NCBI GenBank assembly: GCA_021774795.1
Contig: JAJFIR010000006.1
Span: forward strand, 124,001-188,000
From: Emcibacteraceae bacterium
GTDB taxonomy: Bacteria; Pseudomonadota; Alphaproteobacteria; Sphingomonadales; Emcibacteraceae
Direction of reading: 5' to 3'
Length of the DNA stretch: 64,000 nt
In this document: in pieces, positions 612 through 51,901 of the stretch
Numbering within the stretch: the stretch's first letter is position 1
Layout of the letters: every line of letters starts with the position of its first letter
Made by a program: the position numbers and the translations under genes
The notes under the pieces: generated by a model
Seen by the model: the letters and a program-made list of their open reading frames with translations, nothing else
Database searches by the model: none
What the model was told of the DNA's origin: nothing

Positions 612-2129
612 ATGGAACATTTCCCAATTCTTTCGGCTATCACCTTTTTACCGCTGCTCGGTGTGCTTATTATATTAAGTATTACAGGTGAAAAAGAAAT
701 TGTTGACCGTAATTCAAGAAATGCAGCGCTTCTGACAACTGTTGCGACATTCCTTTTTTCATTGGTGCTCTGGTTTGGTTTTGATAAAACAACCGCAAAT
801 TTCCAATTCGAAGAAAATGCCCAGTGGCTTGGCGGCGGTATAAGCTATCATATGGGTATTGATGGAATTTCGATCCTCTTTGTTTTGCTTACAACATTTA
901 TTATGCCGATTTGTATTCTATGTGGCTGGGACACGATCAAAGACCGCGTCAAGGAATATATGATTGCCTTCCTGCTTCTTGAATGTTTTATGATTGGCGT
1001 TTTCTGTACATTGGATCTGGTATTATTTTACGTATTTTTTGAAGCGGGTCTTATCCCAATGTTCCTGATCATTGGTGTATGGGGCGGTGCAAACTGCATA
1101 TATGCTGCTTATAAACTGTTTCTTTATACATTGCTTGGTTCCGTGCTTATGCTTGTTGCGATGCTCTATATGTACGGGCAGGCGGGCACCACCGATATTC
1201 CTACATTGATGCAGTTTGATTTTGATCCCCATGCTCAAACATGGCTGTGGCTCGCGTTTTTTGCTTCATTTGCCGTTAAGATGCCGATGTGGCCGGTACA
1301 TACCTGGCTTCCTGATGCTCACGTGCAGGCGCCGACGGCTGGCTCGGTGATACTGGCGGGTATCTTGCTTAAAATGGGTGGTTATGGTTTTCTTCGTTTC
1401 TCGCTTCCCATGTTCCCGGTTGCTTCATATGAATTTACTTGGCTCATTTTTAGTCTGTCATGTATCGCGATTATATATACGTCACTGGTTGCACTGGTTC
1501 AGACAGACATGAAAAAGCTGATTGCCTATTCATCTGTCGCACATATGGGCTTTGTGACAATTGGAATTTTCACATTCAATATTCAAGGCCTTGAAGGTGC
1601 CATAATGGTTATGTTGGCGCATGGATTTGTCGCTGCCGCGCTTTTCCTCTGTGTTGGTGTGGTTTATGATAGACTGCACACTCGTGATATAAACCGTTAC
1701 GGCGGTCTGGTGAATATCATGCCACGCTATGCGCTTGTATTCATGTTCTTCACAATGGCTTCCGTTGGATTGCCCGGAACCGCAAACTTTGTAGGTGAAG
1801 TCCTGGTGCTTGTTGGAATATTTAAAGTCAGTAGCTGGGTAACATTCTTTGCTTTATTTGGTGTGATTCTCGGGGCAGCTTATATGCTTTATCTATACAG
1901 ACGGGTTGTATTTGGCGAACTAACGAAAGACGATTTAAAAAATATGCTTGATCTGGAGAAACGCGAAATAATTATTTTCGCGCCGCTGGTGATATTTACG
2001 CTTTGGATGGGGGTCTATCCATCGACATTTATGGATTTTATTCATGTGTCCGTTGAAAATCTTAGTATGCAACATGAGGCCGCTATGACTGTTTATCATG
2101 CAACCCTTGAAACAGTAGCTGGAAATTAG
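612..2129 (+). CDS. nuoM: NADH-quinone oxidoreductase subunit M
   Basis: Antiporter-like, proton-translocating membrane subunit of complex I, 505 residues with about 14 hydrophobic segments. The conserved membrane Glu is in [16 protein letters not shown] at residue 144, the same number as in E. coli NuoM, and the conserved Lys lies in [18 protein letters not shown] at about residue 223. I start at 612 because the ATG is preceded by GGGAGGG and directly follows the nuoL stop; an in-frame ATG at 579 would overlap nuoL by 32 bases and has no family support. It is part of the nuoL-nuoM-nuoN operon end. Confidence 0.97.
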
Positions 2130-16500: not shown

Positions 16501-16608
16501 ACTTTCACATGCGGGTGTTTGTTAGTCCCCTACATATTGGGATCGACACACCGGTGTTCTTAATGAACTCAGAACCCGCAGAGGATTAACCGGAAAAGGA
16601 ATATTATT
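16501..16608 (+). promoter_or_regulatory. structured 5' leader of rpsB
   Basis: The leader can fold with a closing helix GCGGGT (16511-16516) to ACCCGC (16574-16579), an inner TCCC/GGGA hairpin (16526-16529 with 16539-16542) and a 10-base palindrome ACACCGGTGT (16548-16557), followed by AAAAGGA before the ATG. In E. coli S2 represses its own rpsB-tsf message through a structured leader; the same role here is an inference. Confidence 0.4.
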
Positions 16609-49721: not shown

Positions 49722-49730
49722 TATCTGAGC

Positions 49731-49761
49731 AAAAAAAATGCCGGGTAACAAGTACCCGGCA
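49731..49761 (-). terminator. intrinsic terminator of the minus-strand sRNA (and lysR)
   Basis: TGCCGGGTA (49739-49747) and TACCCGGCA (49753-49761) pair over nine bases; on the minus strand the stem is followed by eight T (the A run at 49731-49738). On the plus strand no T run follows, so it works leftward. Confidence 0.92.
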
Positions 49762-49894
49762 AGTTCACAAAATATAGGGAGGTTTCATATCTTGGGGAGA
49801 GTATGAAACATGTGGTGGACCGTAAAGGGGGAGGATGCGGCGCCACCACGAACTGAGACAACTTAAGAGTTTCTCAGCGATGTTTCTCAACATC
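49731..49894 (-). ncRNA. putative C-rich-loop small regulatory RNA
   Basis: On the minus strand four stem-loops follow one another: GATGTT-GAGA-AACATC (49894-49879); CTGAGA-AACT-loop-AGTT-TCTCAG with one bulge (49877-49853); GTGGTGG...CCACCAC (49849-49812) whose loop carries CCTCCCCC; and GTTTCATA-loop-TATGAAAC (49809-49782) with CTCTCCCC in the loop. A single-stranded CCTCCCT (49782-49776) and a strong terminator with eight T complete it. TATTAT at 49905-49900 places a start near 49894, just at the first stem. Three exposed anti-Shine-Dalgarno segments suggest an mRNA-binding sRNA; it could also be the processed lysR 3' end. No protein frame explains this structure. Confidence 0.75.
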
Positions 49895-49996
49895 TGAATA
49901 TAATATAGATGATCACTATAGGAATGAGTACTAGGCAAAATAGCATTGCTGCCATGCAAAAAACGCATAGCTTAAGATATGCATAAAAAATACATG

Positions 49997-50881
49997 TTAA
50001 AAACTCGACTTATTAAATTCTTCAACAATGAAATCACGAAAGGCGGCGATACGTTTTGAATTTCTAAGTTCTTGAGTATAAACGAAATATGCGGGAAATT
50101 CCGGCCCCTGGAAATCTGAAAGGACGCGGTTGATATTGGTTGATCCCTGAACAAGATAATCGGGCAGGGCGGCGATGCCCAAACCGGATTTTACCGCCGA
50201 AAGCACGCCGTGAATGCTGTTTATTTGTAAAACGGGGATCCTTTTTACCTTTGCACCAATGTCTAAAACCCAGTTTATGTCGCGTATGGGGCTTGTGGTT
50301 GAATCGCCGTAAGTAATTAAATGGTGGTCGTCCAATTCTTCCGGTGATTTCGGCCTTCCGTTTTTATTAAGGTAGCCCGGTGACGCATATAAATGATGGT
50401 GAAAGGTGCCGACTTGCTTTTGGATAAGGTCCAGATGTTCGGCCGGATGGAAGCGAATAGCGACATCGGCCTGCCGTGTAAGAAGGTCATAATTTTTGTC
50501 CGCGACCACCATTTGTACTTTGATATCCGGATAACGGAAAATGAACTTTTTAATGCGGTGCATCATCCAGGTCGAACCAAAGCTTGTGGTCGTGGTGATT
50601 TTTAAATTACCGCGCGGTCTTTCTGTGCCTTCCAGTATTTTTTGTTCTGTCACATGAATTTTTGAAACGACATCTTTTGTGGTTTCATATAATGTTTCGC
50701 CTTCGTCGGTTAAAATAAGCCCTCGCGCATGGCGGTTGAATAGGGAGGTTTGCAGGCTTTCTTCTAATGTACGGATTTGGCGGCTAACGGCGGATTGGCT
50801 AAGCCCCAGTCTTTCACCCGCATGGGTAAAGCTGCCTGCCGTGGCAACAGTATGAAATATACGTAGTTTATCCCAATCCAT
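49997..50881 (-). CDS. LysR-family transcriptional regulator
   Basis: A 294-residue regulator: an N-terminal winged helix (about 1-60) with TAGSFTHAGERLGLSQSAVS as recognition helix, then a periplasmic-binding-protein-like effector domain (about 90-290). The effector and targets are unknown. The gene is read away from trxB with 15 bases between them, both minus, so trxB-lysR may be one transcript. The following terminator is 236 bases downstream, with the putative sRNA in between. Confidence 0.9.
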   Translation of the reverse strand: MDWDKLRIFHTVATAGSFTHAGERLGLSQSAVSRQIRTLEESLQTSLFNRHARGLILTDEGETLYETTKDVVSKIHVTEQKILEGTERPRGNLKITTTTSFGSTWMMHRIKKFIFRYPDIKVQMVVADKNYDLLTRQADVAIRFHPAEHLDLIQKQVGTFHHHLYASPGYLNKNGRPKSPEELDDHHLITYGDSTTSPIRDINWVLDIGAKVKRIPVLQINSIHGVLSAVKSGLGIAALPDYLVQGSTNINRVLSDFQGPEFPAYFVYTQELRNSKRIAAFRDFIVEEFNKSSF

Positions 50882-50896
50882 TCAGATGCTTTCTAT

Positions 50897-51844
50897 TCAT
50901 TCACTTTCCGCAATAAACTTTTCTGCTTCAAGTGCCGCCATGCAGCCCATACCGGCCGCCGTAACGGCTTGTCTGTATTTTTCGTCTGTAACATCGCCTG
51001 CGGCGTAAACACCTGGTACATCTGTTAAAGTGCTATCCGGGGCCGTGTTAATATAACCGCGATCATTTATATCAACTTTCCCGTTAAAGAGCGAGGTTGA
51101 TGGTGCATGACCGATGGCAATGAAAACACCGTGCACGGGAATTTCGGAAAGCTCCCCGGTTTTAACGTTTTTAATTCGGGCCGCCGTAACGCCGCCCATC
51201 GGACCTTCATCACCGAGGATTTCATCAATTTCACTGTCCCAAACGCATTCGATTTTTTCATTGGCAAACAAGCGGTCCTGTAATATTTTTTCAGAGCGTA
51301 GCTCATCACGCCTGTGGATTAATGTTACTTTGGAGGCGAAGTTGGTTATGAAAATTGCTTCTTCAACGGCAGTGTTACCGCCGCCTACGACTATCACGTC
51401 TTTACCGCGGTAAAAGAAACCGTCACATGTGGCACAGGCGGACACGCCGGTTCCCTGAAATTTTTCTTCCGACGGAATGCCAAGCCATTTTGCCTGCGCA
51501 CCAGTTGCTATGATCACCGTGTCACCAATATATGTATCGCCGCTATCACCCTTGCAGACAAAAGGCCGTTTTGAAAAATCAACATCAGTTATGAAATCGG
51601 TAATGATTGTCGTATCGACATTTTCGGCCTGTGCTTTCATTTGTTCCATAAGCCACGGCCCCTGGATCGCTTCGCCAAAACCGGGGTAATTTTCCACATC
51701 GGTAGTAATGGTAAGTTGGCCACCAGGTTCCATGCCTTGTACAATAATTGGTTTTAAATTTGCACGTGCCGCGTAGATCGCCGCCGTATAACCGGCAGGA
51801 CCGGAACCGATAATAAGGACTTTAGTGTGATGTTCAGTAGCCAT
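50897..51844 (-). CDS. trxB: thioredoxin-disulfide reductase
   Basis: NADPH-dependent flavoenzyme reducing thioredoxin, 315 residues. FAD site IIGSGPAGYTAAIYAARANL, redox pair CATCDGFFYRG (CxxC) near residue 140, NADPH site VVGGGNTAVEEAIFI, and C-terminal YAAGDVTDEKYRQAVTAAG. ATG 51844 has GGAG eight bases upstream and gives the family N-terminus; TTG at 51859 is not needed. Confidence 0.96.
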   Translation of the reverse strand: MATEHHTKVLIIGSGPAGYTAAIYAARANLKPIIVQGMEPGGQLTITTDVENYPGFGEAIQGPWLMEQMKAQAENVDTTIITDFITDVDFSKRPFVCKGDSGDTYIGDTVIIATGAQAKWLGIPSEEKFQGTGVSACATCDGFFYRGKDVIVVGGGNTAVEEAIFITNFASKVTLIHRRDELRSEKILQDRLFANEKIECVWDSEIDEILGDEGPMGGVTAARIKNVKTGELSEIPVHGVFIAIGHAPSTSLFNGKVDINDRGYINTAPDSTLTDVPGVYAAGDVTDEKYRQAVTAAGMGCMAALEAEKFIAESE

Positions 51845-51901
51845 TAAAGGAAGCTCCAAGTGGAAATATTACCAAAAAATATGGATGATCTTATGACAGA
51901 T

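Follow-up and report, generated by a model that had tools for sequence, protein, structure and literature searches.

The window, a stretch of 64,000 nt from the genome of a marine member of the Emcibacteraceae, carries on its minus strand trxB, lysR and, starting about 100 nt downstream of the lysR stop codon, a predicted small RNA (sRNA) gene at 49731-49896, in which four hairpins precede a 9-bp terminator stem and its eight T. A HAD phosphatase gene converges on the sRNA gene and ends 10 nt past the T run of the terminator. An earlier sequence-only reading of this DNA had placed the RNA between the HAD phosphatase gene and lysR, which the list of open reading frames (ORFs) confirms; the link to lysR had not been seen. 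In the order of transcription, the locus contains:

50897..51859, minus strand: trxB, thioredoxin reductase (ORF translation with CATCDG motif).
49997..50881, minus strand: lysR, VtlR/LsrB orthologue of 294 aa, no cysteine (orthologue search, trxB upstream).
49954..49968, minus strand: predicted LysR operator, ATGC-N7-GCAT, then GGCAGCAAT (conserved palindrome of T-N11-A form).
49945-49957, minus strand: VtlR/LsrB box GCATGGCAGCAAT, one mismatch to GCAT-N3-TG-N3-T.
49903..49908, minus strand: -10 box CTATAT (CTATAA/CTATAT conserved in genus and family).
49731..49896, minus strand: predicted sRNA gene, ~166 nt (fold z-score, compensatory changes); predicted 5' end 49896 +/- 2, 3' end within the T run.
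49879..49894, minus strand: SL1 with GAGA loop (folding); class-wide form GATGTTGC-NNN-GCAGCATC.
49852..49878, minus strand: SL2 (folding, genus/family comparison).
49812..49849, minus strand: SL3 with C-rich 15-nt loop; CCTCCCCC within the loop at 49827-49834.
49782..49809, minus strand: SL4; CTCTCCCC at 49794-49801; first element of the 3'-side module found class-wide.
49776..49782, minus strand: anti-Shine-Dalgarno (anti-SD) segment CCTCCCT after SL4, its first C paired in SL4.
49731..49761, minus strand: intrinsic terminator, 9-bp stem 49739-49761 and T8 49731-49738.

The sRNA folds at -58.5 kcal/mol, compared with -34.0 +/- 3.8 kcal/mol for 200 dinucleotide shuffles of its sequence, none of which folds as well (z = -6.4). 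The elements described in the sequence-only reading, namely four stem-loops with a GAGA loop in the first and CCTCCCCC and CTCTCCCC in the loops of two others, the CCTCCCT segment and the 9-bp terminator with eight T, were all located on the minus strand, and the fold together with the C-rich elements agrees with its description of an sRNA whose anti-SD segments are exposed. The first bases of CTCTCCCC close an inner 3-bp stem of SL4, and the CCTCCCCC octamer, seen once in the window against 0.9 expected, is not unusual by itself. The 5' end at ~49896, just before SL1, is derived from the -10 box and the operator spacing. It coincides with the first stem as previously proposed; the promoter element does not, the conserved -10 being CTATAT/CTATAA, three bases upstream of the TATTAT box that had been put forward.

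The sequence-only reading had staked the structure on compensatory changes in the stems of relatives, and such changes are present, with covariation above shuffles. In a DNA search of 60 relatives, the full-length sRNA was found in 11 of the 12 genus relatives (own genome excluded), the exception being a 53% complete genome, and its 3' part is present across most of the family. Across 28 sequences, 96% of cells in the three tested helices are paired, two-sided changes occur at 12 pairs, and the covariation score of 0.302 compares with 0.128 for shuffled sequences and no more than 0.065 with the partner slid. The SL3 stem has two-sided compensated changes at 8 of its 10 pairs across the family, and the CCTCCCCC in its loop is identical in all 13 genus copies; an invariant loop on a compensating stem is what a pairing seed would be expected to show, and SL3 is a candidate for one. 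SL1 shows two-sided changes at 5 of 8 pairs among 21 class and family sequences, a count that leans towards structure because the sequences were chosen for pairing. All cells of the terminator stem are paired in relatives, and CCUCCCU hardly varies among 46 sequences from across the class. The observed feature is thus most likely a genuine sRNA gene. The SL2 loop carries CUCCC in the sister genus (family g3 loci, e.g. L013, L016 and L019) and lacks it in the window's genus, which indicates gain or loss of seed loops from one genus to another.

The sequence-only reading could not match the sRNA to a known family, and no Rfam family was reached at gathering and E-value thresholds. The nearest model, SorX (RF02784), scores 23.4 bits (E 0.0018) against a gathering score of 46.6, and the next, suhB/mmgR (alpha-r8, RF00519), 18.7 bits against 41, both below the level of membership; the best copies in the class reach 44.1 and 35.1 bits, respectively. 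SorX likewise has a hairpin, a ACCUCCCU linker and a terminator, but its model of 73 positions has no counterpart of SL1-SL3. The suhB/MmgR/SisA-D RNAs, which carry anti-SD segments, are bound by Hfq and often occur in several copies in Alphaproteobacteria (PMC12559287, PMC7143759), likewise have a CCUCCCU linker before the terminator; MmgR differs in its length of ~77 nt and in answering to NtrC/AniA (PMC7143759). The likeness to CCUCCUCCC-motif (CcsR type) RNAs drawn in the sequence-only reading is not the best comparison, as the nonamer is absent from 49725-49900, and it comes down to the exposed C-rich loops of alphaproteobacterial sRNAs. Exposed C-rich loops are also what the RNA has in common with GsrN, whose relatives typically lie by ecfG-nepR-phyR with a sigma-EcfG promoter, C. 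crescentus being an exception on location (PMC5869019); the neighbours here are the HAD phosphatase gene, lysR and trxB. The sole gathering-level Rfam match in the window is an rpsB sRNA (RF01815) at 16506-16606 on the plus strand, with 45.5 bits.

The 3' part of the sRNA belongs to a more widespread module. Among 60 fetched class loci, ACGTCTCCCAGACGTGAAGCCTCCCTGTT followed by a terminator is often found downstream of lysR, and alignment of the class loci with the family copies gave one common module of a CUCCC hairpin, a CCUCCCU linker and a terminator, which recurs downstream of lysR across Alphaproteobacteria, often as ACGUCUCCCAGACGUGAAGCCUCCCUGUU. A covariance model of the module (R1), whose E-values are rough owing to short calibration, matches in 73 of 144 class genomes and in 42 of 60 relatives, and once in the window's own genome. 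When matches down to about E = 1e-4 are taken, 64 of the 69 matching genomes also have lysR, and 51 have the module less than 1 kb downstream of it on the same strand, an arrangement with a chance of about one in several thousand for a random position; 28 of these 51 genomes lie outside the R1 training set. In four genomes (G087, G196, G193 and G084) the distance from lysR to the module, again downstream and on the same strand, is 1.9-5.6 kb, which suggests insertions between the regulator and the RNA gene. None of 40 class loci scanned against Rfam reached an sRNA gathering score, and a literature text search with the class core sequence returned only unrelated human-cell subjects; the alpha-r8 survey cited in PMC12559287, which lies outside the literature covered, may describe the module.

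Orthologues of the LysR protein at E <= 1e-60 are present in 90 of 144 class genomes, usually adjoining trxB, in keeping with a trxB-vtlR order that is well conserved in Alphaproteobacteria and is followed in Agrobacterium by abcR1 and abcR2 (PMC7486931, PMC8844928). In Rhizobiaceae, VtlR/LsrB activates the AbcR (ar15) sRNAs encoded just downstream of its gene and binds PabcR1, where the published box, GCAT-N3-TG-N3-T, spans -61 to -49 and the -10 is CTATAT (PMC7486931, PMC8844928). The first base of GCATGGCAGCAAT lies 61 nt upstream of the predicted sRNA start, the same spacing as published for PabcR1 (PMC8844928), and the box is perfect at this distance in many family members. It forms the right half of the palindrome ATGC-N7-GCAT, which fits the generic T-N11-A form of LysR sites. 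In the interval from lysR to the module, an exact copy of the palindrome occurs in 19 of 26 class loci versus 0.095 expected, and a copy with at most one mismatch in 25 of 26 versus 1.8 expected; both expectations come from mononucleotide shuffling of these intervals. Two other perfect ATGCN7GCATRNCNGCA sites were found in the own genome, one inside a 588-aa ORF (contig C13) and one in apparently coding sequence as judged by eye (C47), so that no wider regulon was found in this genome. Cysteine-based sensing of oxidation is reported for Agrobacterium LsrB (PMC11975290); since the LysR of the window contains no cysteine, as is the case for 36 of the 60 orthologues in the class, thiol sensing of this kind cannot be assumed for it.

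A direct comparison with AbcR was afforded by G396, a genome that carries true ar15 RNAs and came to light among 389 genomes. The ar15 covariance model (RF02345) had found no match in the 144 class genomes, controls included, a result that was uninformative until the model was seen to work in G396, with 127 bits. There, the AbcR tandem lies ~210 nt downstream of the orthologous lysR on the same strand, the window LysR is 44% identical to the adjacent regulator, and the interval before AbcR1 (L138) holds ACTATGCGGACAGCGCATAACTGGCAT, in which the ATGC-N7-GCAT is exact and the box perfect. The sRNA of the window thus shares with AbcR1/AbcR2 (alpha-r15) the position and strand downstream of a VtlR/LsrB gene adjoining trxB, an operator at the same spacing (box at about -61/-49, with one mismatch), a -10 equal to the published PabcR1 hexamer (PMC8844928), and a terminator. 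UCCC motifs sit in a loop and in the linker of both, with partial agreement in sequence. Hfq binding and repression of ABC-transporter mRNAs are further traits of the AbcR family. AbcR represses many mRNAs via CUCCCA and GUUCCC segments (PMC5461406); in the class copies the hairpin contains CUCCCA and the linker CCUCCC, the RNA of the window carries CUCUCCCC and CCUCCCU, and GUUCCC is absent. In other respects the RNAs differ: the sRNA has ~166 nt and five hairpins including the terminator, versus 114-121 nt and three for AbcR (PMC8844928, PMC7143759), and three C-rich segments versus the two anti-SD motifs of AbcR (PMC8844928). Nor do the sequence models find each other, the ar15 model giving no match at E <= 5 in the sRNA region (membership requiring at least 40 bits) and none in the own genome, and R1 giving none on AbcR. 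Given this mutual blindness, descent from a common gene is no more than a possibility. In Rfam, ar15 and suhB belong to one clan. By position and, by analogy, mechanism, the sRNA is probably the counterpart of AbcR, with a sequence outside ar15.

In Rhodobacter, SorX originates by release from a 3' UTR, and the RNA could be imagined to arise in the same way, with trxB-lysR read-through ending at the terminator and processing releasing a C-rich product. The common strand, the distance of 100 nt from lysR without another terminator found between, and the rank of SorX as best sub-threshold Rfam match (class copies up to 44.1 of 46.6 bits) fit such an origin, but the operator and the -10, which are conserved, keep a constant distance before the sRNA and match the abcR1 promoter (PMC8844928), argue for a promoter of its own, making a 3'-UTR product unlikely; the own-promoter and read-through routes may coexist. 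It is very improbable that the feature amounts to the 3' end of the lysR mRNA with its terminator and lacks a role in trans: the terminator would indeed serve trxB-lysR, but the four additional hairpins, with their compensatory changes and their unvarying C-rich loops, would be superfluous for this, and the class-wide CCUCCCU and the tandem or distant extra copies in relatives point the same way. A 67-aa ORF (49765-49968) is open across part of the sRNA, but relatives carry many 1-2 base indels in loops and linkers with the stems kept, which a reading frame would not tolerate, leaving an encoded small protein scarcely credible.

Structure, covariation, synteny, the operator and the likeness to AbcR make a LysR-activated anti-SD sRNA the best explanation, and we consider it likely that the locus encodes a VtlR-controlled anti-SD sRNA at the AbcR position, outside ar15, with extra C-rich loops in Emcibacteraceae. 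From the computed structure and covariation, synteny, operator and spacing, and class-wide conservation, we infer transcription, LysR activation, a part for Hfq and anti-SD action. The sRNA would have its own promoter immediately beyond the lysR gene of VtlR/LsrB type, whose product is predicted to activate the sRNA gene via the ATGC-N7-GCAT operator near -61. The transcript would end at the terminator and act in trans, most likely with Hfq, and its C-rich segments (the SL3 loop, the SL4 loop and the CCUCCCU linker) may, as in AbcR, pair with the SD regions of several mRNAs and block translation. Target prediction with these segments had been suggested in the sequence-only reading. A crude search of the own genome for perfect seed complements next to ATG gave nothing beyond the control; it returned four places, about as many as the reversed pattern, with no transporter genes among them.

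Regulation of the VtlR/LsrB-AbcR kind by anti-SD pairing is already known in principle; new, as far as the literature covered shows, are the wide distribution and the enlarged form. As a broader reading, which we offer tentatively and hold to be somewhat short of an even chance, the ACGUCUCCCAGACGUGAAGCCUCCCUGUU RNA downstream of VtlR would be the ancestral alphaproteobacterial anti-SD regulator, one that dozens of families possess and Rfam does not cover. Rhizobial AbcR would be a rewritten descendant of it or a replacement, and Emcibacteraceae would have enlarged it with several seeds under one LysR switch, whose only intergenic target with a perfect operator this RNA seems to be. Whether AbcR arose from this sRNA is now a testable question. 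The circuit known from pathogens and symbionts among the Rhizobiaceae would thereby extend to free-living alphaproteobacteria, and it is set apart from thiol sensing by the lack of cysteines in most LysR proteins of the class. The strongly conserved 29-nt core and the operator allow the sRNA to be found in many genomes without a label.

Additional copies occur in several relatives. In one genus member the sRNA is tandemly duplicated, with its own operator (locus L005 of G012, 1239-1363 and 1500-1626, minus strand), an arrangement that resembles abcR1/abcR2, and several copies or related C-rich modules follow one another downstream of lysR or in its vicinity in three further loci (L026 of G013; L046 and L059 of G091 and G198). 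Most database records that share the core are MAGs under the labels Emcibacter, Emcibacteraceae, Kordiimonadaceae or Alphaproteobacteria. An Emcibacteraceae-type core also lies on a contig (L127, JANQLQ010000164.1) of a MAG named Fulvivirga (Bacteroidota), which is probably mis-binned or mislabelled.
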